A DNA stretch of 38,127 nt from NCBI GenBank assembly GCA_030429835.1, contig JAUIGC010000012.1, forward strand, positions 1 to 38,127, written 5' to 3'. Shown piece by piece: positions 4,743 to 26,496 of the stretch. A program made the translations under genes and the position numbers. Origin of the DNA: Bacteroidia bacterium (GTDB lineage: Bacteria > Bacteroidota > Bacteroidia > Flavobacteriales > Flavobacteriaceae). Within the stretch, counting starts at the first letter, position 1; the number at the start of each line of letters is the position of its first letter. Under the pieces are notes generated by a model. That model worked only from the letters and a program-made list of their open reading frames with translations, made no database searches and was not told the DNA's origin.

Positions 4743-4753
4743 GTTTATAAACT

Positions 4754-5392: not shown

Positions 5393-5402
5393 ATATTTTG
5401 TC

Positions 5403-6608
5403 TTAGGCACTTGCCCTTTGCACTTTTAAAATGCAGTTATAAATTTCCTTGACATTGTTTTCCCAACTATGGGACAGGCCATAGGCCTTTCTTTGTTTTT
5501 GCAAGTGGGGCGTATCCTCTTTCAAGGCTCTTTCAATAAGTGCCACGTAATCCTCCGGTGTTTCCCCTAAATAGGTAAAATCCTTGAAGTATTCCATAGC
5601 CTTTGTAGCTGATGCCACGGTAGGTTTTCCCAAGGCTAGGTATTCATCTATTTTTCTCGGGTAATTTCCAATGGTAGCATCGTTTATCAACTGCGGATTT
5701 ATGGCGACATCAAAACCTTTTATATAGTTGGGTAATTGGGATGCATCCCTACTCCCTAGAAAAAAAACATTCTCCATCTGGTGCAATCCGGAATTCGCGA
5801 AGGTATCGTCCTCAGGACCAACCAGTACAATGCTCCAATCTTTCCTTGAAATGGCAATATGCTCCAAAATAGGGATACTAAGCCTGCGACTAGACAAAAA
5901 CCCAACGTACCCAATGATAGGCCCTTTAATGACCGCCAAATCTTCCGGTATGATAATTTCACGAAGCTGATCGTTGAACAAACGCGTATCGCAACCTTGA
6001 CCTACCATGAAGGAATTGGGGGTAAATTCCCTACCATACTCCGTATAGAGGGTAGAGTTGTTTACTACACAATCTGCGGCTTGTATTAATTTTGGCTCCA
6101 GACGTACACCATTTTTTCTCCAGTACGGATTTTTTGTTAAGAAATCTCGCATGTAATAAATGTAAAAATCCGGGGTTAAAAATTCCCTTATATGCTGCCC
6201 CAAGAACATGGAACTATCATTAAAAACAATGTAATTCTTGAAATTCAGCTTGGCAATTGCTTTACTGATATCCCCACAAAACCGTTTTCCATTTCTTCTA
6301 TTTAGAAAGCCAAAGAGCAGGGGCTGACTAATAAAATTGATAGATTCCGTCATAGTGATAGGATATAGGTTCCACAAATTTTCAGAAATAGGCACCAATC
6401 CCTCTTCAAGGCCTTTTTTTATCCTGAGTCGTTTCTGGATGGACTTGGATTTACGATGCCGAATACTGCTTATCCTATCCAAAGGTGGATTAACATAAAG
6501 TACCCGGTTATGTTTTGAAAATTCTATGGCTATGTTTTTGCAATTGCTACCAATTTCGATATCCCAGGCCTGTATGCCCATAACTATTATATCCCTTCTC
6601 TTGATCAT
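5403..6608 (-). CDS. Glycosyltransferase, TuaH/GT4-like
   Basis: A 401-residue GT-B fold glycosyltransferase. The N-terminal half opens RRDIIVMGIQAWDIEIGSN and has VLYVNPPLDR, YIYYMRDF and VVNNSTLYTEYGREFTP. The C-terminal half has GPIIGYVGFLSSRRLSI, VLVGPEDDTF, VFFLGSRDASQLPNYIKGFD and KIDEYLALGKPTVAS. That pattern fits glycosyltransferases resembling TuaH of teichuronic acid synthesis (family recognition, not a search result). It starts at ATG 6608 in an ATGA overlap with the stop of the preceding GT4 gene, so translation is likely coupled. It probably adds one residue to the lipid-linked repeat on the cytoplasmic face. Confidence 0.85.
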   Translation of the reverse strand: MIKRRDIIVMGIQAWDIEIGSNCKNIAIEFSKHNRVLYVNPPLDRISSIRHRKSKSIQKRLRIKKGLEEGLVPISENLWNLYPITMTESINFISQPLLFGFLNRRNGKRFCGDISKAIAKLNFKNYIVFNDSSMFLGQHIREFLTPDFYIYYMRDFLTKNPYWRKNGVRLEPKLIQAADCVVNNSTLYTEYGREFTPNSFMVGQGCDTRLFNDQLREIIIPEDLAVIKGPIIGYVGFLSSRRLSIPILEHIAISRKDWSIVLVGPEDDTFANSGLHQMENVFFLGSRDASQLPNYIKGFDVAINPQLINDATIGNYPRKIDEYLALGKPTVASATKAMEYFKDFTYLGETPEDYVALIERALKEDTPHLQKQRKAYGLSHSWENNVKEIYNCILKVQRASA

Positions 6609-7771
6609 TGCGCTATCAAATTTTGATTTTCACTATAAACTTCTTGATAGATGGCAAGGACTTCTTCCGCCATGGTACGCCACGAGAATTTGGCGGCGCG
6701 CTCAATGCCTTTTTCGGCCAAAATTGCCGCCAATTGCTTATCCTGTACCAACATTTCCATGGCTTGGGTAATTTCCCAAGGATGTGTAGGGTTTACGATT
6801 ATAGCAGCATCTTCCCCTGCAATCTCTGGCATGGAGGACGTATTGGATGTAATAACGGGCACCCCACAGGCCATACCTTCCAAGATGGGAATACCAAAAC
6901 TCTCCCGAAGCGAAGGATACAAAAAGACGGTACATTGACTAATGAGGGCCGGCAATTTGGCGTTGGGCACATAGCCTGTCAGATGGATTCTTTTGCGAAG
7001 TTCCGGTCTACCAAGGCTATCCAATATTTTCTGAAGTGCCCGCTCCTCGTAATCTAGCATCACCAAGGTATACGTATTAGGGTACTGATCGTTAAAATCC
7101 GAAAAAGCCTTGATAACACCCGGTGTATTTTTTTTGGGATCTGTATTTCCTAAAAAGAAAAAGAACTTATCCGGCAAACCATAGTCCATCTTTACTTGTC
7201 GTAGCTCAAGACCGTTGTTTATCTTTTTAAAATGGGCCCCCACACCATTATAAACGGCCCGTAACTTATCATCCTTAAATCCGAAATATTCGCCGATACG
7301 CTTTTTTTCGTAATTGGAAACCGTAATGACCTTCCTACTTTGTCTCACCACCGATGGCACAACATACCGCCGATACATATTCCCTAATTTTTGATACCAG
7401 GTTCCATCCTTTTTCAAGAGACTGATGCTTTCCAGGTAAATTATATCATGAAGGGTAGTCACAACAGGGATTTTACTGTTGATTGGCCCCGTATTGCTGG
7501 TACAATGAAGTACATCACAGCCCTCCTTGGCAGCAGCTCTTGGCAATTCTATCTGTTCCCAACCGGGATATCCAAATGCAGAGGTAAGCTCCACCACCTT
7601 AAAATTAGGTGCTTTGGGAATACAGGTATTGTCCACATCGGGCCTTACGAAAATGACATATTCGTTTTCCGAATCTATCTGCTGAAGATTTTTGATCAAT
7701 TCTAGAGCCACCATGTCCATGCCATGTTTCTTTTCTCTAAAAAGTCGTTGGCCTTCAATACCTATTTTCAT
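6605..7771 (-). CDS. Family 4 glycosyltransferase (GT-B fold)
   Basis: Retaining GT4-type enzyme of 388 residues. It has the N-terminal KIGIEGQRLFREKKHGMDM with a glycine-containing donor/acceptor loop, VVTTLHDIIYLES, KVITVSNYEKKRI and FFFLGNTDPKKN. The C-terminal nucleotide-binding signature is an EX7E motif, RESFGIPILEGMACGVPVI (E290 and E298), followed by SSMPEIAGEDAAIIVNP. Its stop overlaps the next start by four bases and it lies 6 bases after the preceding GT2 gene, so it belongs to a tight glycosyltransferase run. A role in adding a repeat-unit sugar is inferred from context; mannose or rhamnose donors are common in the family but unproven here. Confidence 0.93.
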   Translation of the reverse strand: MKIGIEGQRLFREKKHGMDMVALELIKNLQQIDSENEYVIFVRPDVDNTCIPKAPNFKVVELTSAFGYPGWEQIELPRAAAKEGCDVLHCTSNTGPINSKIPVVTTLHDIIYLESISLLKKDGTWYQKLGNMYRRYVVPSVVRQSRKVITVSNYEKKRIGEYFGFKDDKLRAVYNGVGAHFKKINNGLELRQVKMDYGLPDKFFFFLGNTDPKKNTPGVIKAFSDFNDQYPNTYTLVMLDYEERALQKILDSLGRPELRKRIHLTGYVPNAKLPALISQCTVFLYPSLRESFGIPILEGMACGVPVITSNTSSMPEIAGEDAAIIVNPTHPWEITQAMEMLVQDKQLAAILAEKGIERAAKFSWRTMAEEVLAIYQEVYSENQNLIAQ

Positions 7772-7777
7772 TTTTGC

Positions 7778-8986
7778 TTAATTACTTTTTATAGTCCCAT
7801 GCTGGGTATGGATGAATTTTTTATTGGCACCCCTTAGCTTAAAAAGCGAAAGGAACATAACGCCAAATGCCCTGGGCAATGTAAATACAGCCCTTAACGT
7901 GGCCCTATTGTAAAATTTATGGGGAATGGACAAAACAAAAGAAAGAACCGTCATCACTAAAAGTGTGTACCATACCACAGAGGGTACAAACAATGTTGAT
8001 GCAATTGAGAGTATGTCAAAAACCAAATAGAGTAAAGAAATGAGCACCACCATCCCCAATAAAAGAATACGTGGCGGGGAAACCATTTGATAAACCTTAT
8101 CGGCAAAATCGATATTGCCCCTTAAAAAAAGTTCTTTAACACCCGATGTCGCATACCTTCCAAAATAGACGAATTGTGCTGAAAGCCATCGCTTTCTTTG
8201 ATTGGAGAAGACTTCCGTTTTTTGAACTTTTTCGTCCAGAACATAGGCATCAGCCAAATATTCGATGGTATTCCTGTCCTTGAGCAACTTTAATTCCAGT
8301 TCCTTATCAAAACCACCAACGGCATTGACTTGAGACATTGTCTTTTTAAAAAAATGATAGTCAAAGGCCATACCTGACCCGATTAAGGCCGAGGAAAGTC
8401 CCATCACCCGGTGTCCTTTCCTGAAGATGTGGTTGTTCACCTCCTCGCTGATGGCGTCCAAAATAGCAAAGGCCGTGTTGGTATTTTTGGCCATACGATG
8501 CCCTTGCACAACCTTAAATCCTTTGTTGAAGGCATCGTTAATTTTAGATACAAAATCCGAAGCCATAATATTATCGGCATCTAAAACGAGGGCCACCTGA
8601 TAATCATCACCCAACTGCCGCATGGCCTTGTTTAATGCCTTGGATTTGGTGCTTTTGTCAAAAGACACTTCCAAAACGGTCAAGGGCAGTTTTCTTAGGG
8701 ATTTCAAGGTGGACTCCTCAAAGGAATCCGCGATGACAACGACCTCGAACAAATCCTTTGGATACTCCTGTCGCAAAGCCTTTTGTGCCACTTCCACGAT
8801 GACATTGTCTTCTTTGTAACCGGGAATGAGTACAGCAAACTTCCGTTCCCTGTTCATAATTCTTGCCCGTTTTGGAGTCTTAAAGACTCCGGCCAGGGCA
8901 AAGATGAACACATATAGGGCAGCAAAACCGAAATAGGCGATAAACAGAACCTCAAAAAAGTATACTATGATTTTAAGAACATCCAT
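7778..8986 (-). CDS. Membrane-associated family 2 glycosyltransferase with altered acidic motif
   Basis: GT2 enzyme of 402 residues: N-terminal helix (about 5-34), GT-A domain with VVVIADSFEEST, DxD motif LDADN (136-138), a QRKRW motif (263-267), then two to three helices (about 300-350) and a basic tail. Processive-type GT2 enzymes normally have a TED motif ahead of QxxRW. Here the equivalent region is compressed to GGFDKELELKLL (225-236), so the catalytic base is not obvious. It lies between UDP-xylose synthase (15-base gap) and the GT4 gene (6-base gap). Likely transfers a UDP-sugar at the membrane; whether fully active is uncertain because of the altered motif. Confidence 0.87.
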   Translation of the reverse strand: MDVLKIIVYFFEVLFIAYFGFAALYVFIFALAGVFKTPKRARIMNRERKFAVLIPGYKEDNVIVEVAQKALRQEYPKDLFEVVVIADSFEESTLKSLRKLPLTVLEVSFDKSTKSKALNKAMRQLGDDYQVALVLDADNIMASDFVSKINDAFNKGFKVVQGHRMAKNTNTAFAILDAISEEVNNHIFRKGHRVMGLSSALIGSGMAFDYHFFKKTMSQVNAVGGFDKELELKLLKDRNTIEYLADAYVLDEKVQKTEVFSNQRKRWLSAQFVYFGRYATSGVKELFLRGNIDFADKVYQMVSPPRILLLGMVVLISLLYLVFDILSIASTLFVPSVVWYTLLVMTVLSFVLSIPHKFYNRATLRAVFTLPRAFGVMFLSLFKLRGANKKFIHTQHGTIKSN

Positions 8987-9001
8987 ACGTGAAGGCCCAG
9001 C

Positions 9002-9970
9002 TTAGGAGTTTACCAACGCTTTGATGGATTGATCTTGTAACATGCCATCAAAATATTCGATTGTTTTTATCAAACCGGTCTTAAGGTCGACAGAAGGTTC
9101 CCAATCCTTTAATTTTTCTTTGGCCAGGGAAATATCCGGTTTGCGTTGCATTGGATCGTCCGAAGGTAAGGGCAGATGAATAATTTTTGATTTTGACCCT
9201 GTAATCTCAATGATGTTCTGGGCCAATTCCAACATAGTGAACTCACCGGGATTACCAATGTTTATAGGACCTATGAAGTCATCTCCCGTCCCCATCATTT
9301 TAATCATCCCATCAACCAAATCGCTAACATATTGAAAACTTCGGGTCTGAGTCCCCTCTCCAAATACGGTAATGTCCTTTCCTTGAAGGGCCTGCATGAT
9401 GAAGTTGGAAACAACCCTACCATCATCCGGTTCCATTCTCGGTCCATAGGTATTAAAGATGCGAATGATCTTAACCAAGACGTCATTGGAATGGTGGTAA
9501 TTGATGAACAGCGACTCCGCACATCGTTTCCCTTCATCGTAGCAGGAACGGATCCCTATTGGATTTACATGGCCCCAGTAATTTTCAGGCTGTGGATGTA
9601 TTTCCGGATCGCCATATACCTCACTGGTAGAAGCCTGTAATATTTTGGCATTGATACGTTTGGCCAAGCCCAACATATTGATAGCGCCCAATACCGAAGT
9701 TTTTATAGTCTTTATAGGATTATGCTGGTAATGGACCGGAGAAGCCGGACATGCCAAATTATAGATTTCATCCACCTCGATAAAATAGGGCAAGGTTACG
9801 TCATGCCTTATAAGCTCAAAGTATGGATTGTCCATAAGGTGCACTATTTTACTCTTTCTACCCGTAAAATAGTTGTCCATACAAACTACTTCGTTGCCTT
9901 CACCCAATAGACGTTCGCAAAGGTGTGAGCCTACAAAACCTGCACCACCGGTGACCAATATTCTTTTCAT
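9002..9970 (-). CDS. uxs: UDP-glucuronate decarboxylase (UDP-xylose synthase)
   Basis: Converts UDP-glucuronate to UDP-xylose by NAD-linked oxidation and decarboxylation. The 322-residue SDR has [15 protein letters not shown] (residues 7-21), MDNYFTGRK, the family-specific [19 protein letters not shown] (71-89), the catalytic STSEVYGDP region (T115, E117), YDEGKR (Y144, K148), [10 protein letters not shown] and [12 protein letters not shown]. These distinguish it from UDP-glucose epimerase and ArnA. It is directly downstream of ugd (28-base gap), which supplies its substrate, so the pair makes UDP-xylose from UDP-glucose. Length matches bacterial UXS enzymes; it lacks the N-terminal membrane anchor of animal versions. 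Confidence 0.95.
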
Positions 9971-9998
9971 GTCTTTATCTTTAAATTATTATGGCCGC

Positions 9999-11363
9999 TT
10001 AGATGGCCTTTTTTACCGGAATCTTGTTGGCATTTTCCACGTTGACAGCTTCCCTACCAATACTGAAATATTGAAATCCAAGCTCCCTCATTTCCTCTGG
10101 GTCGTACACGTTTCTTCCATCAAAAATGAGCTTTTGGTTCATGATCTTTTCCAAGATCCTAAAGTTGGGCATTCTAAATTCTGACCATTCGGTCACCAAA
10201 ATCAATGCATCTACCTCTATACAAGCATCGTACTCATCCTTTGCATATACGACTGTATCCGCCAAACTGTGCTTCGCCTCTTCCATGGCAACAGGATCAT
10301 AAACACGGACTTGCGCGCCCATAGCTTTCAATTGTTCTATAATCACCAAAGAAGGTGCCTCTCTCATATCATCTGTTTTTGGCTTAAATGATAAGCCCCA
10401 GATTCCAAACTGTTTGCCCCTTAGGTTTTCTCCAAAATGTATCTTGATTTTTTCGACCAATTTGGATTTTTGTCTGTAATTGACGTTTTCAACGGCTTTT
10501 AAGACCTCTAGGGAATGTCCATGTTCATCGGCTGTCCTGATCAAGGCCTGTACGTCCTTGGGGAAACAGCTACCGCCATACCCCGTGCCCGGATAAATGA
10601 ATTTATTACCAATTCTGGCATCTGAACCAATCCCTTTGCGAACCAAGTCCACATTTGCCCCTACCAGTTCGCAAAGGTTGGCAATATCGTTCATGAAACT
10701 AATTTTAGTGGCCAGCATAGAATTTGCTGCATACTTTGTCATCTCTGATGAAAATATGTCCATAAACAACAATGGGTGTCCGTTCATCAAAAATGGCTTG
10801 TACAACCTTTTCATGGTCTTTTGAGCCCTTTCAGTTTCTATTCCCACGACAATTCTGTCCGGTTTTAGGAAGTCATCCACAGCGCTACCCTCTTTTAAGA
10901 ATTCTGGATTGGAGGCCACATCAAAGGCTATATCTACTTTACGCTTGTCCAATTCCTCCTGGACCGCTTTCTTCACTTTAAAGGAAGTTCCAACTGGGAC
11001 GGTACTTTTTGTAATAATCACCTTATAATCTTCCATATGTTGGCCAATTTCCCTAGCTACACCCAAAACATACTTCAAATCAGCACTACCATCCTCATCC
11101 GGTGGGGTTCCCACAGCTATAAAAACGGCATCACTGCCCTGTATTCCCTTAGCCAAATTTGTGGTAAAAGTTATCCTTCCCTTTTCCAAGTTCCTTGCCA
11201 ATAAATTATCCAGACCTGGTTCATAAATGGGTACCTCACCATTTAAAAGCATCTGTACTTTTCTTTTATCGATATCCACACAGGTAACATCGATTCCGGT
11301 TTCTGCAAAACAGGTTCCCGTAACTAGACCTACGTACCCTGTACCAACTACTGTTATTTTCAT
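9999..11363 (-). CDS. ugd: UDP-glucose 6-dehydrogenase
   Basis: Oxidises UDP-glucose to UDP-glucuronate with two NAD in the cytoplasm. From ATG 11363 the product is 454 residues and opens MKITVVGTGYVGLVTGTCFA (Rossmann loop at 7-12). It has VGTPPDEDGSADL, STVPVGT, NPEFLKEGSAVDDFLKPDRI and the catalytic-Cys motif GTGYGGSCFPKDV (C266). The C-terminal domain shows FGIWGLSFKPKTDDMREAPS and ILVTEWSEF. The open frame extends 26 codons upstream to 11441 but those residues are not family-like. Ugd with UXS indicates glucuronate and/or xylose in the polymer. A TAnnTTTG-like box 24 bases upstream suggests its own promoter. Confidence 0.97.
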   Translation of the reverse strand: MKITVVGTGYVGLVTGTCFAETGIDVTCVDIDKRKVQMLLNGEVPIYEPGLDNLLARNLEKGRITFTTNLAKGIQGSDAVFIAVGTPPDEDGSADLKYVLGVAREIGQHMEDYKVIITKSTVPVGTSFKVKKAVQEELDKRKVDIAFDVASNPEFLKEGSAVDDFLKPDRIVVGIETERAQKTMKRLYKPFLMNGHPLLFMDIFSSEMTKYAANSMLATKISFMNDIANLCELVGANVDLVRKGIGSDARIGNKFIYPGTGYGGSCFPKDVQALIRTADEHGHSLEVLKAVENVNYRQKSKLVEKIKIHFGENLRGKQFGIWGLSFKPKTDDMREAPSLVIIEQLKAMGAQVRVYDPVAMEEAKHSLADTVVYAKDEYDACIEVDALILVTEWSEFRMPNFRILEKIMNQKLIFDGRNVYDPEEMRELGFQYFSIGREAVNVENANKIPVKKAI

Positions 11364-11386
11364 TTTATTTGAATTGATTATAATTG

Positions 11387-11394
11387 TAAATATA
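11387..11394 (-). promoter_or_regulatory. Candidate -7 box upstream of ugd
   Basis: TATATTTA on the minus strand matches 7 of 8 positions of TAnnTTTG and is the same octamer as upstream of rfbB, here again followed by C and A-rich leader. No TTG at the expected -33 spacing. The 142-base gap before ugd supports a separate promoter for the ugd-uxs-glycosyltransferase run. Confidence 0.35.
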
Positions 11395-11435
11395 TTCTTA
11401 CATTTTTTGAGGAAATAAATTATGTTGTATAACTG

Positions 11436-11448
11436 CCACAATATGTGG
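11436..11448. repeat. Short palindrome upstream of ugd
   Basis: CCACA-ATA-TGTGG is a perfect 5-bp inverted repeat with a 3-base centre. It lies 42 bases upstream of the candidate -7 box, in the gap between the GT2 gene and ugd. A palindrome of this size could bind a dimeric regulator but is also expected by chance now and then. Confidence 0.3.
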
Positions 11449-11505
11449 TGTATACTTTTTTCTTATACGTTTAAGATGTTAGGATTTTATTTGCCCCATC
11501 AAATC

Positions 11506-12405
11506 CTATTTTGTTAACTTGAAATGAGTCAAATTCCAATAAATAGCACTAGAAAATGCCTTCAAATGTTCAAATTGACCTTTTAATAGAAATGTGATAA
11601 GATTTTTGGGTATGGACACCACGGTCTGAAACAGCATGCTGAACCACAGATATTTGAAAGAAAAATTTCTTCTGGCAAAGACTATCCTATTCCTTGCAAT
11701 ATAGTATGTTTTAAGTGGACTGTTCTTACCCGTGGACAATGACTCCTTGTGAAGGATATAGGACTTTGGTTGATAATAAATGGAGTATCCCGCCCTTTTT
11801 ATCATTTCGGCCCAATCATGTTCCTCATAGTACAGGAAATACATTTCGTTCATCATGCCTACTTCTTCGATCACTTGTCTGGGCACCATCATGGCCGCTC
11901 CGTGAATGGAGGCTGTCACTCCTTCGGTATCATAACTTCCGTCATCCATTTTATGGTAACCAATACTTTTGTTCCTAATGGTCCATTTGTTCATAGATGT
12001 ATATCCCGCATATTGAATCTTGCTAGGATCCCAATGAAATTTAATTTTTGGACTGACCATGCCAATGTTAATATCCTTTTGTAGTGTTTCTACCAAGGGC
12101 TCCAAAAAATTTTGGGGAACTATGGTATCGTTGTTAATGAACAACAGATAATCTCCATTGGAAACTTTAACCCCCAAATTGTTACCTCCAGCAAATCCTA
12201 GGTTTTTATCACTCACTATCAAATTAATTTCAGGAAATGCCTTCTTTATTACCTGTGGATTGTCACTTGGCGATGCATTGTCTACTACAATCACCTCTAC
12301 ATTGTTGTAAGTAAGGTCCCTCAGTGATGTCAAAAGATCTATGGTTACCTGTGAGTCGTTATAGTTCACGGTAATAATGGATACGAGTGGTAGGTTATTG
12401 TTCAT
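11506..12405 (-). CDS. Family 2 glycosyltransferase (WbbL/rhamnosyltransferase-like)
   Basis: Soluble inverting GT2 enzyme, 299 residues from ATG 12405. It shows PLVSIITVNYNDSQVTIDLL, VEVIVVDNASPSDN, the NLGFAGGNNLG segment, the metal-binding position as LFINNDTIVP, and the later GAAMMVPRQVIEEVGMMNE and YYEEHDWAEMIKRAGYSIYY (EHDW is the usual acidic motif). That is the WbbL-type group, in which many members transfer rhamnose. It stands alone between two intergenic gaps (12406-12638 and 11364-11505). The frame runs up to 12447, but the candidate promoter box at 12445 makes ATG 12405 more likely. dTDP-rhamnose as donor is inference from family and the nearby rfb genes. Confidence 0.9.
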   Translation of the reverse strand: MNNNLPLVSIITVNYNDSQVTIDLLTSLRDLTYNNVEVIVVDNASPSDNPQVIKKAFPEINLIVSDKNLGFAGGNNLGVKVSNGDYLLFINNDTIVPQNFLEPLVETLQKDINIGMVSPKIKFHWDPSKIQYAGYTSMNKWTIRNKSIGYHKMDDGSYDTEGVTASIHGAAMMVPRQVIEEVGMMNEMYFLYYEEHDWAEMIKRAGYSIYYQPKSYILHKESLSTGKNSPLKTYYIARNRIVFARRNFSFKYLWFSMLFQTVVSIPKNLITFLLKGQFEHLKAFSSAIYWNLTHFKLTK

Positions 12406-12444
12406 GCAGAAATTAGATTTAGTACATCCCTTTCTTTGCGATTT

Positions 12445-12452
12445 CAAAAATA
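12445..12452 (-). promoter_or_regulatory. Candidate -7 box for the stand-alone GT2 gene
   Basis: TATTTTTG on the minus strand is a full match to TAnnTTTG, 39 bases before ATG 12405, without a clear TTG -33 element. The rest of the 233-base gap (12406-12638) is AT-rich and shows nothing else recognisable. Confidence 0.35.
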
Positions 12453-16427: not shown

Positions 16428-16433
16428 AGTATT

Positions 16434-17006
16434 TTATCTGGTTGCCCAAGCCTTTTGGGTTGGCTGTATATTAATTTCCGCTTGATAGACGGTAGGGATT
16501 GGTTGATACGCCAATAGTTCCGTAGCTCCTAGTTTAGAAGTGCAGTAGCCCTCAATCGTTAATGACCTTAGTATGGTGAAAAATGATCTTCCCCTTAATT
16601 TGACCTCTATTTTGTTTATGAAATCGTTGGCCGAATAACTACCGTCCAAATCTTTTAGTATCTCATTTTTTTCCTCCATGGTACAGCCTTCGAAATTGGC
16701 ACCGTACATATTGTTGCAAGAATCCTGTACCTCATAAAGCCCATGCAAGAAATTGACATACTCTTTATTGGGGGCACAAAACTCCATATAACCCAATATA
16801 TAGTCCTGCACATGGGCTTCCTTGGCACCAGGGGTATCGGTAGGAGGAATAATGATATCGATCATTTCCGTAATCAAGCTTAAATGCTGCCTAAGTTGCC
16901 CTCTTTGAACCTTTGGGTTACCAAAAAAAAACTTCTTTGTGGTAAAAGCGGCAATCCCCATACCAGTGACCGCCAAAATACCTACCATTGCTTTTCTTCT
17001 GTTCAT
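16434..17006 (-). CDS. Gluconate 2-dehydrogenase subunit 3-like protein
   Basis: 190-residue small subunit of the type that pairs with GMC oxidoreductases. It starts MNRRKAMVGILAVTGMGIAA, a twin-arginine-like signal with a hydrophobic stretch (8-20). Then comes the family core LSLITEMIDIIIPPTDTPGA, VQDYILGYMEFCAP and SFFTILRSLTIEGYCTS, followed by AYQPIPTV. In known complexes this subunit helps fold and export the FAD subunit through Tat, which fits the 6-base spacing to the GMC gene. It is the first gene of the redox block and is preceded by a 167-base gap that may hold a promoter, though no clear TAnnTTTG box was found there. Confidence 0.92.
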   Translation of the reverse strand: MNRRKAMVGILAVTGMGIAAFTTKKFFFGNPKVQRGQLRQHLSLITEMIDIIIPPTDTPGAKEAHVQDYILGYMEFCAPNKEYVNFLHGLYEVQDSCNNMYGANFEGCTMEEKNEILKDLDGSYSANDFINKIEVKLRGRSFFTILRSLTIEGYCTSKLGATELLAYQPIPTVYQAEINIQPTQKAWATR

Positions 17007-18252: not shown

Positions 18253-19704
18253 TCAAGTGATTTGATGGTCAATGTATTTAGGTTCGCTTTCTTCAATGGG
18301 CGTTTCAAAAATTTTAGGGTTTGAAATCAAGGCCATTGAAGAATATATCAATAAGGCCGTAGGCAGGCCACCCAAAACCGCATTACCATAGGATGCTGCC
18401 ATAACCCCAAGCATTCCACAAATAAGAGCGCTCATCTTCAATTTTGTTATTGGATCCCTAATTCTAAACATGACCTTAAAGGATGCCATGCCCACTACAT
18501 AAAATAAAATGCAAAGATGCATGGTCAAGCCAACCACGCCCATTTCCGCCCAAATCATCACGTACCAACTATCTGTAGCAACGTGTGATAGAAATGCGTT
18601 GGGCAAAAATCGTTGCGCTTTGTCACCTGCATGGCCAATGCCTCCTCCAAATGGTCTGGTAGCCATATAGGCACTTAGAATTCTTTGATTGGCCAACCGT
18701 ACCTGTAGTGATGCATCATTTGGATCAAAGCCAGTACGCATTCTTCGAATTTGAGGATTACCATTAGCAATCGTTGTATATTTAAAAAACACAAAGAGCA
18801 TTGCGACGAACAAAAGACCGGCACTAAGTACTTTAATGTTCTTCCTTAATACGAAAAAGGCCATAAAACCAACAAAGGGAACCGCGATAGAACCTCTAGT
18901 CCCAGATATTAACATGCCATAAATACCCAGTATACCAACCGTAAGAAAAAAGAATTTTGGAAGCCCTTTTTTGGCCATGGAATAAATGATAAAAACCACA
19001 CCGGCGTATCCCTGGTTCCCTCCAAATTGACCTGCATCACTAAAGAAAGAAAATACCCTTAGCTTGCCGAACAATACATGGGTAACCGCACCTCCCCTAT
19101 CCAACCATGCCTGTTCGGCAAAATCTACCCCAAAAACCATTTGCCCAATACCCTTAAGTGTACCAAGTATTGAGAGAATGCCCCAAACGTAAAGGAAGGT
19201 GTCCAGTCGTTTATTGGTATTGATCAGCATAAAAGTGAGGACGACAAAAAAGAAGAAATAGAAACCTATTCCCCTACCCGCAATCCAGGGTTCTATCATT
19301 CTTGCCTCTGGATTTACCAGTTGAAATATGAAATATAATAACCAGATCCCTGCCAGAAAGGTAACGTCCTTTTTCGCCGGGGACCAATCCACCCTTTCCC
19401 TAAATCTCTTAAAGATCAAGGCCAAAAAGGTTAAAACCATTAATCCATCTATACCAAATCCTAACGGTAATCCTTGAACGTAGCGACCAATTCCAAGGAT
19501 AATAAAGTTTAACCCTATGGTGGTGTAAAAACCTAGTACAGGATTCTTGAAAACCGCATAGATGAAAATACTGCCCAAAAAAATCGCCAGCAAGATACCT
19601 ACACCTGCCAACTCCATTTTGGCAAGCATCAAGGCCATTAACGCCGTAATCCCGAATAATGACAAAACCACCATTGGTTTGGCCAAACTAGCCGAACCGG
19701 ACAT
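18253..19704 (-). CDS. O-antigen ligase/polymerase-like membrane protein (Wzy candidate)
   Basis: About 483 residues with roughly twelve hydrophobic segments, the O-antigen ligase/Wzy_C type. The large periplasmic loop includes DSWYVMIWAEMGVVGLTMHL and upstream GGGIGHAGDKAQRFLPNAFL, resembling the Wzy_C pattern where an Arg and a His/Asp region are needed for polymerisation. Context with a flippase and co-polymerase makes it the likely polymerase of lipid-linked repeats. Start is uncertain: ATG 19704 (used here) or TTG 19743, which forms TTGA with the wzx stop and would couple translation, adding 13 residues. Ligase versus polymerase cannot be separated from sequence alone. Confidence 0.88.
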   Translation of the reverse strand: MSGSASLAKPMVVLSLFGITALMALMLAKMELAGVGILLAIFLGSIFIYAVFKNPVLGFYTTIGLNFIILGIGRYVQGLPLGFGIDGLMVLTFLALIFKRFRERVDWSPAKKDVTFLAGIWLLYFIFQLVNPEARMIEPWIAGRGIGFYFFFFVVLTFMLINTNKRLDTFLYVWGILSILGTLKGIGQMVFGVDFAEQAWLDRGGAVTHVLFGKLRVFSFFSDAGQFGGNQGYAGVVFIIYSMAKKGLPKFFFLTVGILGIYGMLISGTRGSIAVPFVGFMAFFVLRKNIKVLSAGLLFVAMLFVFFKYTTIANGNPQIRRMRTGFDPNDASLQVRLANQRILSAYMATRPFGGGIGHAGDKAQRFLPNAFLSHVATDSWYVMIWAEMGVVGLTMHLCILFYVVGMASFKVMFRIRDPITKLKMSALICGMLGVMAASYGNAVLGGLPTALLIYSSMALISNPKIFETPIEESEPKYIDHQIT

Positions 19705-19739
19705 TTTTTCAAAAGGATTTATATGACTCAAATTAGTTT

Positions 19740-21119
19740 TCAATTTGCTTTTTCGTTCGCGAGCAACAATCGTTTGTTACTTGCTTTATTTAATAGGTTC
19801 ATATAGAAATCCCATCCCCTGTAAAAAATTTTACCATAGGACAAATTCAATTCTTTGTTTAGGAAATACATTCCCATCCAAATACCTATTATGGTAAATA
19901 GGATTGAGCCAACAGCAACTAGAATCAAGGACTTAAAAATAAAAATGGCAACGAAATCCCCAATCACATTGGCCGCTACCATGATGAATACCTTGAGGGC
20001 GTTTATGTTAGGTCTATTGATACTATCCAAACACACCCCTGTCATTCTATCTATGGGAAGTAACAACCCATACACAGAAAATACTCGGACCATGGCCACC
20101 ACATTGAACCCTGTTTCCGGATCCACCTTTAAATACTGCTCACCAGAAAGCATCAAGACCAAATAATCCGCAAAGACAAACGTGAACAAACTCATCCCTA
20201 TAAAAAGGTAGGTGAGCGCTCCGGAATAGGTATAAAACAAATTCCTTACTTCGTTAACCTTTCCCTGAACACTGGCCTTGGACATCTTTGGAAATGCAGT
20301 AGCGACAAAACTTCTCAAAGGAATTTGTTGCAATTCTGTAAGCTTTAGAGGAATGCTAAAAAGGGCTACGGCAGCACTTCCCATTGGGCTCAAACTTATA
20401 ATCAAAGTATCCGCACTTCTTAAAAGATTGGTCCCTATCAATGTAAAGGTGGTATATTTTCCAAAATCCAGTAAGGTCCTATTGGTCTTGGAAGTTGCCT
20501 GTCTTATATATTTGGCGCCATCCCAGCCCAAAAACAAGCTAATCAAAGATGTAATGGCATTCGCTATGAGTAACCCAATAACCAATTGTGTCAATGTCAT
20601 TTCCCTAACGAAAAAATGAAGGACGATTACCAGAAAAAAGATACCGCTTTTAAATGCTTTGATGGCTAAAATTTGACCGTACTTCCTATCCGCTTGTAAA
20701 ACCACTAAAGCATTGTTCCAAGGCAAATTTAAAAAGGCCAACCAGGGATACCATTTGAAAAAGAGGTAATATCCAGACGTACTAATGGAATCATAAAATA
20801 CCACGAGGCAAAACAGTAGAATAAGTGCTATTAGGATCGTGGCGCAAAGGCCTATTAAGGTATTTGACCCTATAAGTTTTTTCCTTTCATGAGTATCCGC
20901 ACCGGATAAAAATCGTATCAAAGCCGTATTGGTAATGCCAAACCGAAACATCTCTACAAAGGATCCCCCAGTCACAAACAAAACCCATTGACCAAAAACA
21001 TCCAAGGACAAACTCCGGGCCAGTAGACCAAAACCTGCAATACCTAATACAGCAATGACAAGGTTTCCCGTCAATGACAGAAAATTATCTTCCTTAACTA
21101 TTTTTTTGAGGATTTTCAT
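19740..21119 (-). CDS. Oligosaccharide flippase (Wzx-like, MATE/PST family)
   Basis: 459-residue membrane protein with about 12 to 14 helices, starting MKILKKIVKEDNFLSLTGN. It has the typical N-terminal GLLARSLSLDVFGQWVLFVT of polysaccharide flippases, then FGKYTTFTLIGTNLLRSADT (the usual second-half opening) and ALFSIPLKLTELQQIPLRSF. It would move undecaprenyl-linked repeat units across the inner membrane. ATG 21119 is chosen; the open frame goes 39 codons further into the wzz-like gene with no membrane character. It lies 10 bases after that gene. Confidence 0.92.
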   Translation of the reverse strand: MKILKKIVKEDNFLSLTGNLVIAVLGIAGFGLLARSLSLDVFGQWVLFVTGGSFVEMFRFGITNTALIRFLSGADTHERKKLIGSNTLIGLCATILIALILLFCLVVFYDSISTSGYYLFFKWYPWLAFLNLPWNNALVVLQADRKYGQILAIKAFKSGIFFLVIVLHFFVREMTLTQLVIGLLIANAITSLISLFLGWDGAKYIRQATSKTNRTLLDFGKYTTFTLIGTNLLRSADTLIISLSPMGSAAVALFSIPLKLTELQQIPLRSFVATAFPKMSKASVQGKVNEVRNLFYTYSGALTYLFIGMSLFTFVFADYLVLMLSGEQYLKVDPETGFNVVAMVRVFSVYGLLLPIDRMTGVCLDSINRPNINALKVFIMVAANVIGDFVAIFIFKSLILVAVGSILFTIIGIWMGMYFLNKELNLSYGKIFYRGWDFYMNLLNKASNKRLLLANEKAN

Positions 21120-21129
21120 GGACTGCCTG

Positions 21130-23508
21130 TTATATCTGGTTTTTTGACAAAAACTGAAACTTAAAAAACGCCTTGAGTTTTTTCCTAAACCTGCTTCGTG
21201 ATTTTGGCAGATCTCCCAAAATGGATTCAACCTCATTCAACTCAACACCATTTACTATCAATTTGATTTTTGAACCACAGGTAGTCCTTAAATTGGCCAT
21301 TGCAGATTCATCTGCATCTGACCAAATTCTATTGGACCGACAAACAAGAATGTCAATATCACCTCGAGCGAATAACTCTGGAGGGTAGTTGTTATAAATG
21401 ATTGCAGGAATTTCAATGATTACAAAATCTAGAGGGTCATCAAACTTTGGATCTTCCTTACCAATAATATCCAAGTAACTTTTTGCATTGTAATAATTAT
21501 GGTCCAACTCATAGATTTGGTATTCGGAAGCTGAAAGATATTTGCTGGCGTCTGACAAAAATGGACTGTCAAAGTCTATACGGGTATCCGGATAGCCCAA
21601 AATCCTGTTAATAAATGAAAATCCTTGACTTTGTTTAATCGATTCCTTTTTCTTTCTGTAATTGAGCAGCAATACTTTTTTGCCTTCACGTTTCAATGTC
21701 CTTGCAATATTACCTGCCACTATCGATTTTCCTTCTAGTTTTTGCGTACTGAATACAATAATGGTTTTTGGTTTCTTATCAGAATCCTGTTCGCCTAAAT
21801 ATTGCTGAATATTTTGCGTCACAATTTCGGTTAAACGCTTTTGAACAAATTGTAAATCGACCCCTCTGGGATCCAAGATTATCTTTGGAATCATTCCAAT
21901 GGATGAAAAGCCGGTTTTTTTGATCGCTTTAGCGGAATTTCTTAATGTATCATCAAAATACTCCATGATAAAAATGGCTCCTAATGTTAGGATACCACCT
22001 AAAAAAGCGGCCGCAATTATAAGAACGGTGCGTTTAGTTGGATTCGGAGACAAAGGATAAAAGGGCGGGTCTATTGTCTTTAATTCTGAGGCCAATTCGC
22101 TATCCTGTAATTTTAACTTGGCCAAACTCAACCCATGGAGAATCTCCAAATATCCCTGTTCAGCTACATTGATTTCACGCTCAAGCCTTTTCATATTGGC
22201 ACCTGCAGGGGCATATTTTTCATAGATTTCTTGAAACTCTTTCTTCTGATCATCAATTACTCCAATTTTTGCCTTTAGTTTTTCCGTCTCCACGGAACTG
22301 GACATCCAATCAGGCAGAACTTTGGAAATTTGAAGACCGTCTATTGTATTTTGATAAGAATAAAGTTCATTGACCCCCGTTTCTATGGAATCCCTCAATG
22401 CAGCTGCCTGTACTTGCAACTCCGCTATTTTGACGGCATCCGTTTGGTTATTGGTAGACTCTACTTGTGCCTGAGCCAAGCCTAATTGATAATTCAAGTT
22501 CCCTAAGGCCTCTTTCTTCTTAAGTAGTTTATCGCTTTTTATTTGAATAACCTCTTGCAATTGTAATTTATCTTCCAAGCGTTTTGTTCCTGCCTGAATT
22601 CCGGCCAATTCAGCCTTTTTGGCCTTAAAATCAACCTCCAGCTCCTCTTTAACTACGGCTACCGCTTTACTCTGCTCATAATAGTTTATGATATTGGAGC
22701 TTTTATTGAACTCAAGTAGTTTGTTTTCTGCCAAATCCAAACTTTCCTTTGCCTTCTCCAATTCATTCTCAAAATACTTGACCACAGAGCCCGATCTATT
22801 TTCTTTGATTACTTTGTAATTTTTGATACATACTTGGCTATAAATGGAAAGCGTTTGCTGGCAAATGCCCGGATCGTTAACGGTATAACTTAATTTTATA
22901 AGATCACTACTATTTATTCGTTGGGCGGTTATGCCGGATAGTGCTTTAAGGGAGTAGTGCTTGTTTTCCCCATAATTGACTAGCTCATAAATAAAATTAT
23001 CAGTGCTGCTTCGCATCAAAGTCAATAAGTTCTGGACCGTCCTTTCATAATCATGAGAATCTATTTCTGGCGGAAGTAAGTCATAAAGAACCGTTTCCTC
23101 ATTTTTATTTATTGAATTACCATCCCCTTTTTCTACGTATTGGTATAAATCATCAGGAATAGAAAGTTTAAATTCATCGTAAAGTTCCTTTGAAATATAC
23201 TTGGAATCTGCTTCGGGCAACATTAAATGCATTGCTAGTAACCTTACTGCTACCTCCTCCTGAGTCTCCCTTGATTTTATGATATTAATTAAATTATCAA
23301 ACGCCGTACCTGTGGCTTGTGTGCTAAACTTTTTATCCATTTCAATGGATGAGCCCGTAGCAAGACCTGTATATAGAATAGTTTGTGAGGTATATTCATA
23401 CGAAGGTTTCATGGTAAGCAGTATAACCATGGTGCCCAGCACTATAGGGACTAATAATAGTAGTGCCAAATGCCTTACGACAAGCCTTATGAAATCAATT
23501 AGCGTCAT
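21130..23508 (-). CDS. Wzz/Wzc-like polysaccharide co-polymerase with degenerate tyrosine-kinase domain
   Basis: 792-residue chain-length/export protein. It has inner-membrane helix 1 (about 14-33), a long periplasmic region rich in coiled coil (about 240-470), PPFYPLSPNPTKRTVLIIAA leading into helix 2 (about 493-516), then a cytoplasmic ATPase-like domain. Its Walker A is STQKLEGKS (587-595, K594 kept). The Walker A' Asp is replaced (LLLNYRKK, N616) and the Walker B Asp by Glu (VIIEIPA, E699). No tyrosine-rich tail exists: the last residues are basic and Phe-rich. So the Wzz part seems intact but BY-kinase activity is doubtful. It overlaps the TolC-like gene by 14 bases. Likely controls polymer length and links Wzy to export. 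Confidence 0.92.
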   Translation of the reverse strand: MTLIDFIRLVVRHLALLLLVPIVLGTMVILLTMKPSYEYTSQTILYTGLATGSSIEMDKKFSTQATGTAFDNLINIIKSRETQEEVAVRLLAMHLMLPEADSKYISKELYDEFKLSIPDDLYQYVEKGDGNSINKNEETVLYDLLPPEIDSHDYERTVQNLLTLMRSSTDNFIYELVNYGENKHYSLKALSGITAQRINSSDLIKLSYTVNDPGICQQTLSIYSQVCIKNYKVIKENRSGSVVKYFENELEKAKESLDLAENKLLEFNKSSNIINYYEQSKAVAVVKEELEVDFKAKKAELAGIQAGTKRLEDKLQLQEVIQIKSDKLLKKKEALGNLNYQLGLAQAQVESTNNQTDAVKIAELQVQAAALRDSIETGVNELYSYQNTIDGLQISKVLPDWMSSSVETEKLKAKIGVIDDQKKEFQEIYEKYAPAGANMKRLEREINVAEQGYLEILHGLSLAKLKLQDSELASELKTIDPPFYPLSPNPTKRTVLIIAAAFLGGILTLGAIFIMEYFDDTLRNSAKAIKKTGFSSIGMIPKIILDPRGVDLQFVQKRLTEIVTQNIQQYLGEQDSDKKPKTIIVFSTQKLEGKSIVAGNIARTLKREGKKVLLLNYRKKKESIKQSQGFSFINRILGYPDTRIDFDSPFLSDASKYLSASEYQIYELDHNYYNAKSYLDIIGKEDPKFDDPLDFVIIEIPAIIYNNYPPELFARGDIDILVCRSNRIWSDADESAMANLRTTCGSKIKLIVNGVELNEVESILGDLPKSRSRFRKKLKAFFKFQFLSKNQI

Positions 23509-24262
23509 TTTCTTTTTCTGTGCTATTTAAATCAAATACAAACCCTGCCATTTCTTCCAACAATTTTTTAGTTGTAATAAAATCGGACAAGGCCGTTTCA
23601 TAAGATTCCTCCAAAGTAGTGGTCATATTGTTCATTCTTACATATTCTGAAATTGGCACAAGGCCATTTCTAAATTCCTTTTCGACCATTTGCATATTCA
23701 CCCGGCCATCACCTAAACTTTTGGACCTTAATTGCAGTAATTTTTGTTTTAGCAATAAGTCCTGGTAAAGGGTTATCACCATTTTTCGTATTTGTTCATT
23801 TTCAAATTCAACCATATCCTTGGCCGCTTCTACTTCTGATTGTGCCAACTTGATTTGATTCTTCCTGTTAATAGCATCAAACAATGGAAGTTTCAAATAG
23901 ATTCCAAAACTATAATTGAATTGTTTGGCAGTTGTAAAAGCAGCTGTATTGGAAACACCATCCTCACTAGTTGCAAAATTGTTTAGATTACCATATCTAG
24001 AATCAGCTTGAATCCCTAAGCTTTTGGACCAATAGATACGTTCAGTTGACAAGAGCGCTTCCTTAACCAGAATATTATTTTTTCTGAATTTTATCATCGC
24101 ACTCCGCTTTATAACCGAGTCTATGATTACATCGAGAGGTGGAAAAGTTAGTTTATTTGTATTTACCACATTATTAATGGTGTCATTAATCTGGGCGTTC
24201 AAACTGTTTGATGAAAGAACAACTGCAAACGCAACTAGAAGTATTTTACAAAGCCTATACAT
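23495..24262 (-). CDS. Short TolC-family outer membrane protein (single repeat)
   Basis: 255 residues with a signal peptide (MYRLCKILLVAFAVVLSSNS, cleaved after LNA about residue 23). One TolC-type repeat follows: LKLPLFDAINRKNQIKLAQS (124-142) and then VEKEFRNGLVPISEYVRM (193-210), with long helices around them. Normal TolC proteins are about 420-500 residues with two such repeats; this one has one. It ends naturally at a stop within the wzz-like gene and does not look broken. Placed between the STAS gene and the co-polymerase, it may form the outer-membrane conduit in place of Wza, or a periplasmic adaptor; a higher-order ring would be needed (inference). Confidence 0.8.
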   Translation of the reverse strand: MYRLCKILLVAFAVVLSSNSLNAQINDTINNVVNTNKLTFPPLDVIIDSVIKRSAMIKFRKNNILVKEALLSTERIYWSKSLGIQADSRYGNLNNFATSEDGVSNTAAFTTAKQFNYSFGIYLKLPLFDAINRKNQIKLAQSEVEAAKDMVEFENEQIRKMVITLYQDLLLKQKLLQLRSKSLGDGRVNMQMVEKEFRNGLVPISEYVRMNNMTTTLEESYETALSDFITTKKLLEEMAGFVFDLNSTEKENDAN

Positions 24263-24281
24263 TTTTAATAATAACTTCTTT

Positions 24282-24584
24282 TTATATCCTATCCGAACTA
24301 AGGATGTATTGCGTTTTGGTCGCGTGCATTACTTCTGAAATTCTGGGATTATGTCTTCCAATTATGTGTATCACCTTATTGTCATTAGCTACCTCCTTAT
24401 AAAACCGCTCAAAAAAATGTGCGGCGGAAGAATCCATTTCCGTTACCTTTTCGATACTTACAAAAAGTGTTTCCGTTTTCTCCAGGATAGCTTGGAAGTA
24501 GGTTCTTAAAATGCCCAAATTTTGGGATGTTACGCGACCGCTTATTTCAAAAAGTCCGCTTTTATCCTCTATTCGCAATGCCAT
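24282..24584 (-). CDS. STAS-domain protein (anti-sigma antagonist-like)
   Basis: 100-residue single-domain protein. The order of strands and helices and the loop TEMDSSAAHFFERF (DSS at 51-53) match the STAS motif, in which the Ser after Asp is the phosphorylated residue in SpoIIAA-like proteins (S52 here). Such proteins act by partner switching. No serine kinase of the RsbW/SpoIIAB type and no PP2C phosphatase gene is present in the window, so its partner must lie elsewhere or be a different protein. It sits between the sugar transferase and the export genes, 19 bases before the TolC-like gene, suggesting direct control of the EPS machine. Confidence 0.8.
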   Translation of the reverse strand: MALRIEDKSGLFEISGRVTSQNLGILRTYFQAILEKTETLFVSIEKVTEMDSSAAHFFERFYKEVANDNKVIHIIGRHNPRISEVMHATKTQYILSSDRI

Positions 24585-24659: not shown

Positions 24660-25889
24660 TTACACGTTTTCCTTTTGGAATACTGCTCTGAACGTTCTAA
24701 ATATGATCCACATATCGTATAGAAAAGCCCTTTTACTGTTGGCATATTCCACGTACTTTACATCGAGTTGTTTTCTCTCCTCAGGGGACATTTTGGAAGT
24801 TCTTCCCCGGGCCTCTACTTGCCATAGGCCGGTAATACCCGCCGGTCCATTGAAACGCTCGGTCCATTCGTCCGTAGTCAACATTTCCGCTTCATATAGG
24901 GGCAAAGGCCTATTACCTACGATAGACATATCGCCCTTGAGCACATTGATCAATTGGGGAAGTTCATCGATACTTAATTTCCTGATAATCTTACCTACTT
25001 TGGTGATTCTGGGATCGTTATCGAATTTTACAAAGGCACTTTCGGTTTCCTTTCTTTTCTTTTCGTTAAAGGCTAGCTCCTCTATTTCAGTATCATCGCC
25101 ATAAAGCTTGATTCCATTGGAAAGGGTGATTTCCTCCAGATAGGCATCTTCGTCCTTTGCTTCCTCCTTTACATATTGGTTTAGGTGCTGGAATTCCTTC
25201 AAGCGCTTATCGGCATCAGGATACATAGACCTCAATTTTAGGAAATTGAAAATTCGATACCCTGTTCCCACCCGTTTTGAAATGTAGTATACCTTTCCTT
25301 TGGATTCCAATCGTATGGCCAAAATGACCACAATAAGAAAAGGTGCCGCCATCAAGAGCACGGTACCGGCCAAGAAGATATCAAAACTACGTTTCCAAAA
25401 TCCAGTTTTATATCTTTTGGATGTTGTTGAATTGGTAGAAATCTTGTGTTGCAATAAATTGGCCTTCAATTCCTTTAAAAAGGAAACCCTTTCCAGAATT
25501 TGGTCCAGTCCTACGGGATAGACAAAAAAATCATCAAACCCATGTTCTATGGCCAATTGCTTCTCCTTTTTGCCAAGTTCATTTCCCAAAAGAATAAAGG
25601 GAATTTTCTGTTCCTGATCAAAGGTTTCCGTTACGTATTCCTTAAAGGAAACCATACCGTCGTCATATAATCCAAAATCACAGAGGATGGCGTCAACGGC
25701 AAAATTGGGTAGCGTCCACTTTTTATCCTTATAATGGCCCTGTCCATGTATCCACTTAATGGCCTTTTCAATGGTATCCACCATATGGATGGAAGTTCCA
25801 TTTTCCTTTTTATGGATTTCATGCATCAAAACCTCATAACTTCCTATACAGAGTAAAACCGTAGTTTTTTCCGTTGTCACTTTCATCAT
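24660..25889 (-). CDS. Receiver-like domain fused to bacterial sugar transferase (initiating phosphoglycosyltransferase)
   Basis: 409 residues. Residues 10-140 look like a response-regulator receiver fold: ILCDFGLYDDG with D71 at the phospho-acceptor place. The acidic pair of strand 1 is absent (VLLCIGS), and the conserved Lys is Tyr (VYP, Y124), so it is degenerate. Residues 160-409 are a WcaJ/PglC-type transferase: membrane hairpin about 172-192, FNFLKLRSM, KLSIDELPQLINVLKGDMSI with catalytic D308/E309, VGNRPLP and GITGLWQVEARGR. An acidic stretch (about 230-288) is inserted between two conserved blocks. It should load the first sugar-phosphate on undecaprenyl phosphate. Start ATG 25889 overlaps the receiver gene's stop (ATGA), so both are co-translated. 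Confidence 0.92.
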   Translation of the reverse strand: MMKVTTEKTTVLLCIGSYEVLMHEIHKKENGTSIHMVDTIEKAIKWIHGQGHYKDKKWTLPNFAVDAILCDFGLYDDGMVSFKEYVTETFDQEQKIPFILLGNELGKKEKQLAIEHGFDDFFVYPVGLDQILERVSFLKELKANLLQHKISTNSTTSKRYKTGFWKRSFDIFLAGTVLLMAAPFLIVVILAIRLESKGKVYYISKRVGTGYRIFNFLKLRSMYPDADKRLKEFQHLNQYVKEEAKDEDAYLEEITLSNGIKLYGDDTEIEELAFNEKKRKETESAFVKFDNDPRITKVGKIIRKLSIDELPQLINVLKGDMSIVGNRPLPLYEAEMLTTDEWTERFNGPAGITGLWQVEARGRTSKMSPEERKQLDVKYVEYANSKRAFLYDMWIIFRTFRAVFQKENV

Positions 25890-26251
25890 TGTTGAATTAT
25901 AAGTTTATCGACCCTTATCAACAATTCTTCTGGATTGAATGGTTTTACCATATAATCCTGTGCGCCCAACTTGAGACATTTTATACGATCGGCACTACTT
26001 TCACGGCAACTGAGTACAATTATGGGAATATCCGAAAACAGGCCAGAGCCCTTTACTTTTTCAATGAACTCATAACCGTCCATCTCGGGCATTTCCAAAT
26101 CGGTTATTATAAGATCGGGCAAATTTCCTTTTTGCAACCAAGCAAGGGCAGTTAACCCATTATCTTTAGTAGTAACCTTGTAGGACTGTCCAAGGAATTG
26201 TGCTACAAGCTCGCTTAAAGACTGCTTGTCGTCTATGACTAAAATTTCCAT
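25886..26251 (-). CDS. Stand-alone response regulator receiver protein
   Basis: 121-residue single receiver domain with no output: strand-1 acidic pair D7/D8 (ILVIDDKQS), phospho-acceptor D51 (IITDLEMPEMDG), S81 and K103 (MVKPFNPEEL). All residues for phosphorylation are present. ATG 26251 is preferred to GTG 26260. It is the first gene of the EPS operon and overlaps the receiver-fused sugar transferase by four bases, which suggests the two are made in fixed ratio and may bind each other. The cognate kinase could be the REC-kinase at 2398-3534, whose own receiver ends are similar (MPKMDG/KPFNP), or any unlinked kinase. Confidence 0.92.
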   Translation of the reverse strand: MEILVIDDKQSLSELVAQFLGQSYKVTTKDNGLTALAWLQKGNLPDLIITDLEMPEMDGYEFIEKVKGSGLFSDIPIIVLSCRESSADRIKCLKLGAQDYMVKPFNPEELLIRVDKLIIQQ

Positions 26252-26282
26252 ACCATTCACATTTGTAGGTTTAAGTAATAAC

Positions 26283-26330: not shown

Positions 26331-26436
26331 CTTGTATAGCGTTGTAATCATCGTCAAATTAGTTGACAGTATTTTCTTACTTTTTGAACCTATTCAAATT
26401 CCACTTCCAAGAATTTCAACTTTAAAGGATAGAGTA

Positions 26437-26459
26437 AAAGCCAACATAATGTTGGCTTT
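26437..26459. terminator. Perfect 11-bp-arm hairpin, likely terminator of the small gene
   Basis: AAAGCCAACAT and ATGTTGGCTTT are exact reverse complements around a single central A. On the minus strand the stem ends in TTT and is followed by TACT, giving a short U-rich tail. It is 37 bases downstream of the stop of the 45-codon ORF, and could also stop plus-strand transcription. Confidence 0.6.
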
Positions 26460-26496
26460 CACAGATTTGGGGGATACTACCTATAATGGTATTATT

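Follow-up and report, generated by a model that had tools for sequence, protein, structure and literature searches.

A degenerate receiver on an initiating phosphoglycosyl transferase and the stand-alone receiver encoded beside it in Bacteroidota

The post-transcriptional decision on spending the shared lipid carrier for slime is poorly understood. The stretch of DNA analysed here (the window; 38,127 nt of contig JAUIGC010000012.1, assembly GCA_030429835.1, from a member of the Flavobacteriaceae) encodes an initiating sugar transferase whose catalytic core is preceded by a degenerate receiver (REC) domain. The mechanisms of pseudo-receivers were called a mystery in a 2025 review (PMC12632262). 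Members of many families in one phylum seem to link two-component signalling to the first enzyme via a dead receiver, and the 66 natural receiver/pseudo-receiver pairs described below, with their readable enzyme output, form a set on which pseudo-receiver mechanism can be studied.

Fold of the fused protein and its family

The gene at 24660..25889 on the minus strand encodes a 409-aa monotopic phosphoglycosyl transferase (PGT) with an N-terminal pseudo-receiver (pREC), hereafter pREC-PGT, assigned from PF02397, the REC profile and the models. Its C-terminal part matches PF02397 (Bac_transf) with an E-value of 1e-52 and 178.7 bits against a cut-off of 27, while TIGR03025 reaches 218.9 bits, below its cut-off of 295.55. 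At the N-terminus, the same single-sequence Pfam scan returned Response_reg at E 0.19 and 12.4 bits, under the 30.2 cut-off, so that only profiles and models reveal the fused receiver. A 26-member family profile matched the receivers of PleD (1.5e-9) and 2zay (2.7e-8) in the PDB, and the AlphaFold2 model of residues 1–161, built from 48 rows (pLDDT 87.1, pTM 0.80), adopts a receiver fold, with strands at 10–15, 32–37, 67–71, 98–102 and 120–123, helices at 19–27, 40–50, 77–89, 107–115 and 128–154, and a hairpin at 52–59. This model superposes on the solved receivers 8tef (Z 13.7, rmsd 2.3 Å over 116 residues) and 2zay (Z 13.6, 2.5 Å, 119 residues). The receiver is also present in the full-length model (pLDDT 77.9, pTM 0.53; Z 12.9 to 2zay, 2.6 Å, 120 residues), where the α5/linker helix spans residues 128–147 instead of 128–154. 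Structure prediction and fold search confirm, at the level of models, the receiver fold that a preliminary description of this DNA had placed at residues 10–140; we delimit the domain to residues 8–147 (25449..25868, minus strand) from the REC profile, the models and the residue alignment.

In place of the transmembrane (TM) bundle and DUF at the N-terminus of large monotopic PGTs, residues 1–161 thus model as a receiver. The Bac_transf catalytic domain (24675..25394, minus strand; PF02397, model and alignment) resembles PglC (8e37; residues 161–406 of the full-length model, Z 21.9, 2.0 Å, 178 residues) and WbaP (8t53; residues 160–405, Z 20.2, 1.6 Å, 156 residues). P183, D308-E309 and R327-P328 are unvaried in the 26-row family alignment; we take D308-E309 to be the catalytic Asp-Glu pair and P183 the helix-breaking proline. 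The domain carries a lid insertion, seen in the family alignment, that falls between residue ~223 and residue 285. In 27/67 fusions and 4/16 PGTs without an N-terminal domain, the lid insertion (found, for example, in the L005 and L011 proteins) holds a four-cysteine CxxC...C...CE motif resembling a metal site; the window PGT has the insertion and lacks the cysteines.

A single-genome oddity was one reading of the fusion, and it was rejected, as the family recurs across sampled genomes. Such a fusion is carried by 38 of the 295 sampled genomes of the class, the window's own included (40 matched at E ≤ 1e-20, two of which, G095 and G127, have no N-terminal domain), and, in a second, overlapping sample of the phylum, by 33 of 395 genomes (45 matched at the stricter E ≤ 1e-60, 12 of them with the short type only). 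Named carriers include Allomuricauda, Flavobacterium, Prevotella, Sediminibacterium, Dyadobacter, Desertivirga, Mucilaginibacter, Pedobacter, Hymenobacter, Rufibacter, Dawidia and a Saprospiraceae MAG. We counted as a fusion any ORF with >90 residues ahead of the PGT match; of the resulting 71, the pREC profile recognizes 68 at E < 1e-3, and the other three (L200, L202 and L206) are classed by N-terminal length alone. The 71 genes comprise that of the window, 17 from named loci and 53 from sampled genomes; a large PGT without an upstream REC (L037:3848-5254) was dropped from the rows, and omission of four fusions >90% identical to others left a non-redundant set of 67.

The preliminary description had noted that in the window D71 is kept at the phospho-Asp position, that the acidic pair is gone (G16/S17) and that the strand-5 Lys is Tyr (Y124). 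All these residue calls are right, and G102 occupies the Thr/Ser position. The loss is shared: none of the 67 fused domains keeps all five phosphorylation residues, although in L175 two of the five positions are gaps because the chosen start codon is late. That these are pseudo-receivers as a family property, as had been proposed for the window protein, is well supported by the alignments.

The receiver gene upstream

Directly upstream of the pREC-PGT gene, and overlapping it by 4 nt (ATGA), lies a gene for a stand-alone single-domain REC (25886..26260, minus strand; PF00072, 5.3e-28) of 124 aa from GTG or 121 aa from an ATG at 26251. This REC keeps D10, D11, D54, S84 and K106. Partners of this kind, as a set, contrast sharply with the fused domains, since 58 of 66 retain all five phosphorylation residues and eight have lost at least one.

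The arrangement is nearly constant. Of 71 fusions, 70 are immediately preceded by a same-strand gene for a stand-alone REC; the count is 66 of 67 once near-copies are removed, and 52 of the 53 whose partner stayed outside the building of the REC profile, which drew on the window and 17 named partners. A neighbouring REC was defined as a same-strand ORF under 200 aa, with a gap of -150 to 260 nt and E < 1e-5; the median gap is 9 nt, with 52/66 within 30 nt and 18 overlapping. Only L175 departs from this, with a histidine kinase in the place of the REC immediately upstream. In its genome (G598), a search for the missing REC gave no close orthologue (the best of 29 matches has 38% identity), and one REC is encoded some 5 kb off, in a frame of 143 aa.

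Ordinary PGTs show no such neighbour. An upstream REC was found at 0/29 PGTs of the class (30 loci, one of which has no PGT ORF above threshold), at 0/62 PGTs of L052–L113, nearly all from other phyla, and at 0/28 non-fused PGTs of 20 fusion-bearing genomes, where both fusions in the same list had it (2/2). These controls are the best-scoring PGT matches, mostly large (450–495 aa), and two loci are common to both Bacteroidia controls. The same REC also precedes 4 of 16 PGTs without an N-terminal domain in the fetched loci, a set of short PGTs some of which are unrelated paralogues or are truncated where a contig stops, and among the tree rows several more PGTs without a fused domain have RECs at a distance of some kb; the REC may therefore act without a fused partner as well. 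In the four cases (L186, L188 and L192, from one genus, and L187), the stand-alone REC is directly upstream, with a hybrid kinase and an HPt nearby.

A separate REC-PGT fusion was seen in a Deltaproteobacteria MAG (L100:9512-10588), whose receiver scores 54.7 bits, over the Pfam cut-off. By eye it retains the acidic pair, the Asp, a Thr and a Lys, and therefore may be phosphorylated directly.

Docking between the two receivers, and its rivals

The near-constant presence of a working REC ahead of a dead-REC enzyme suggests docking of one on the other, switching slime on or off. In the mechanism that we consider probable from the sequence comparisons, a sensor kinase or phosphorelay would phosphorylate the stand-alone REC, which would then pair via its α4-β5-α5 face with the fused pseudo-receiver; the latter, judging by its conservation, would have kept the docking face while lacking the ordinary phosphorylation residues. 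Docking would shift the long α5/linker helix and thereby alter how the membrane-bound PGT works or assembles, which would bring the first sugar-phosphate transfer to undecaprenyl phosphate, the first committed EPS step, under direct control. By analogy, it is natural to infer that the pREC gates EPS initiation. Activation appears more likely than inhibition, because of the analogy with the Myxococcus xanthus pair EpsW-EpsZ.

The most conserved positions of the fused domain fall on its presumed docking face. R134 and D120 are conserved best and F137 third; the first is R in 53 and K in 9 of the 67 fused domains, and the second D in 53 and E in 10. An acid and a base occupy both positions in 61/67 fused domains, compared with 39/66 partners and 20/62 other RECs (taken from the fusion loci and controls, with the PhoB and CheY reference rows uncounted). 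Both D120/R134 of the pREC and D102/R116 of the window REC align with D101/R115 of PhoB, which we take to form the central intermolecular salt bridge of the α4-β5-α5 dimer (D97-R111 in ArcA). For PhoB, two charged residues at the centre of the interface are described as absolutely conserved and crucial, without their numbers being given (PMC2586830). R134/D120 may thus match the receiver-dimer salt bridge, or they could instead stabilize the fold or touch the PGT.

The same conservation would suit homodimers equally, and an alternative is that the pREC is a constitutive dimerization module that pairs two PGT chains through α4-β5-α5, with the REC having another output, or breaking or strengthening the homodimer. 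Fifteen solved pseudo-receivers are dimeric without phosphorylation (PMC12632262), and dimers are the active form of large PGTs; monomers, on the other hand, are the described state of small PGTs (both PMC12802240). On its own, this alternative accounts neither for the REC neighbour of 70/71 fusions nor for the correlation between REC and pREC divergence, and we regard it as unlikely.

That correlation is seen in partial Mantel tests on the 66 pairs (999 permutations), where REC and pREC distances correlate given the catalytic domain (r 0.57, p 0.001), compared with r 0.08 (p 0.13) for REC and catalytic domain given the pREC. Although the pREC and the catalytic domain form one chain, the divergence of the REC follows the pREC more. 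Rank and BLOSUM versions, as well as the 52 pairs that remain without L194–L208, agree (0.42–0.47 versus -0.03 to 0.03), and when the catalytic domain is represented by its most variable columns, similar in entropy, the contrast narrows to 0.40–0.42 for REC-pREC (p 0.002) against 0.14–0.22 for REC-catalytic (p 0.002–0.016). Correlated divergence of this kind can reflect contact, or shared rate changes. A test for covariation specific to the interface was negative: the α4-β5-α5 block gave a mean Z of 0 (p 0.50), and only the top-20 statistic stood out (p 0.02).

In the REC tree, the idea that the pREC arose recently by tandem duplication of its partner found no support: 42 of 43 pRECs group together (support 85/99), the one outside, L168, having a long branch, and the partners need four label changes. 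The tree has many weak forks, and it omits 24 of the 67 pRECs, which match the profile less well.

The Mantel results also bear on a further explanation, in which the phosphorylated REC acts straight on the catalytic domain and the fused pREC serves as a spacer, or as a small-molecule sensor in place of the DUF. The four PGTs that have the upstream REC and no fused domain would fit such direct action, as would the published model in which EpsW touches both the DUF and the catalytic domain of EpsZ (PMC12802240), and the WbaP DUF maybe binds UMP (PMC10942596). Nevertheless, REC divergence follows the pREC above the catalytic domain, and the best-conserved pair in the pREC, R134/D120, aligns with a docking face, and we hold this explanation to be rather improbable. 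Finally, it is most improbable that the fused receiver takes up phosphate on D71 through some atypical route, or that Glu in place of Asp makes it a permanent ‘on’ mimic, since, even though the phospho position is D in 16/67 and E in 26/67 fused domains, it is neither in 25/67, and D, Lys and at least one acidic-pair residue occur together in 0/67 (D with Lys in one, D with one acidic residue in two).

Docking of the phosphorylated REC on the dead one remains our preferred reading. The earlier proposal that the fused domain senses a partner gains strong genomic support from the upstream REC, set against the class and same-genome controls, and from the correlated divergence.

Signals, gene surroundings and known systems

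What might phosphorylate the REC? Kinases were found within 5 kb, on either strand and side, of 13/67 fusions, and HPt-like domains near 9/67; both were found at each of the four short PGTs that a REC precedes (4/4 each), giving totals of 17/71 and 13/71, all of these counts being lower bounds because phmmer was run with few queries. In the window, the opposite strand at the distal end of the EPS cluster encodes a protein with a receiver followed by a HATPase_c kinase domain (2287-3534, plus strand), a candidate kinase for the REC.

Elsewhere, genes of putative nitric oxide sensing run up to the module. FIST proteins of the NosP kind are known as nitric oxide sensors. In Allomuricauda (L034), one same-strand run contains H-NOX (1980-2522), kinase, FIST, kinase, HPt-like and REC-LytTR genes and continues with STAS, glycosyltransferase, REC and pREC-PGT; L177 has the same order from FIST through STAS. 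The occurrence of these gene kinds up to the module suggests a nitric oxide input. The window's genome carries H-NOX, kinase, FIST, kinase, HPt-like and REC-LytTR genes on another contig, C168 (L245, G000:C168:1-9000), at 2957-8945, where the H-NOX matches PF07700 (4.7e-24) and the first kinase (804 aa) was assigned by reading its sequence. The stand-alone HPt-like proteins of L245 and L034 share 45% identity; that of L034 scores under the Pfam cut-off, and those of L035 and L245 have no match. In vibrios, NosP and H-NOX control kinases and the HPt protein LuxU (PMC6769237). It is a conjecture that the H-NOX/FIST operon of the window's genome feeds the window REC. Only tentatively, then, do we picture a Bacteroidota phosphorelay that would end in a phosphorylated REC pairing with a dead receiver on the EPS enzyme that commits undecaprenyl phosphate, with nitric oxide among its inputs in the window's relatives.

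In the polysaccharide cluster around the module, the genes at 18253..24584 and 3531..12447 are read from the minus strand. Downstream of the PGT gene lies one for a 100-aa STAS-domain protein (24282..24584; PF01740, 9.9e-07), which, as a side observation, may be a second type of switch in the PGT operon; a STAS gene is near the module in 3/71 loci, and in L034 and L177 it is upstream. It is followed by a half-length outer-membrane efflux (OEP/TolC-type) protein of 255 aa (23495..24262; PF02321, 4.2e-14). Among the 17 named fusion loci, seven (L034–L036, L038, L039, L044 and L050) likewise have a half-length OEP after the PGT, with a Wzc-type gene next in 6/7. The cluster continues with a chain-length/co-polymerase protein of Wzz/Wzc type, with a C-terminal P-loop part (21130..23508; best NCBIfam match TIGR03007, 6.5e-14, under cut-off), a probable Wzx-like flippase (19740..21236; assigned from its place and hydrophobicity, with no Pfam match at E ≤ 1) and a Wzy_C polymerase/ligase (18253..19743; PF04932, 5.6e-10). 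At 12639-17006 are a GMC oxidoreductase, a gluconate-dehydrogenase subunit 3-like protein and beta-propeller/lactonase-like proteins, and the rest (3531..12447) encodes glycosyltransferases, a hexapeptide transferase, a UDP-glucose/GDP-mannose dehydrogenase and an epimerase. On the other side, in the interval between a MutS-like gene and the REC gene, a terminator-like hairpin with a 13-pair stem, seen directly (26434..26462, minus strand), is a possible upstream border of the transcription unit, although one such hairpin against 2.1 expected in shuffles is not in excess.

Among the closest known systems is EpsW-EpsZ. In M. xanthus, phosphorylated EpsW is found near EpsZ in vivo, and EpsW stimulates EpsZ in a heterologous host (PMC12802240); DifE phosphorylates EpsW, and a relay has been argued for (PMC4671073). 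Both systems pair the PGT that initiates a Wzx/Wzy-type EPS pathway with a stand-alone single-domain regulator that is, or in the window would be, phosphorylated on Asp, and in both, control acts or would act at the first step; the window REC, a single-domain receiver with intact phosphorylation residues tied to a PGT gene, is of the EpsW type in this respect. EpsZ differs in being a large PGT with a TM bundle and DUF and no receiver. In the window, the partner is not a large monotopic PGT with a DUF lacking the beta-hairpin, since a receiver replaces both TM bundle and DUF; a pseudo-receiver precedes the catalytic core on one chain, and the REC and PGT genes are adjacent and overlapping. L186, L187, L188 and L192 show an arrangement like that of EpsW-EpsZ, with a stand-alone REC and a PGT without a pseudo-receiver. 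PglC shares the catalytic fold and has no regulatory domain, and WbaP, again of the same catalytic fold, has the TM bundle and DUF rather than a receiver.

Receiver fusions to small monotopic PGTs, with both on one chain as here, were noted earlier by O'Toole, Imperiali and Allen (PNAS 2021), as summarized in PMC12802240. As to whether the fusion is a common, already characterized family, which the preliminary description had raised, it is common in Bacteroidota and fusions are in print, but no functional study of the pREC-PGT family was among the matches listed in the open-licence literature, and the part of a Flavobacterium psychrophilum biofilm paper available (PMC5350093) held nothing useful on it. 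Receiver/pseudo-receiver heterodimers have been proposed in general (PMC12632262), with the WhiI-BldM heterodimer and the CmrT proposal resembling our case in that a degenerate receiver would pair with another receiver. Those are transcription regulators, whereas in the present family the receivers would act on a membrane enzyme and their genes form a near-obligate pair; the text of that review contains no words beginning with transferase, glycosyl, Bacteroid or polysaccharide. Thus, while EpsW-EpsZ regulation and receiver-PGT fusions are already known, what appears to be new, and is in part supported by the present comparisons, is the near-obligate pairing of a gene for an intact receiver with that for an initiating enzyme which bears a dead one.
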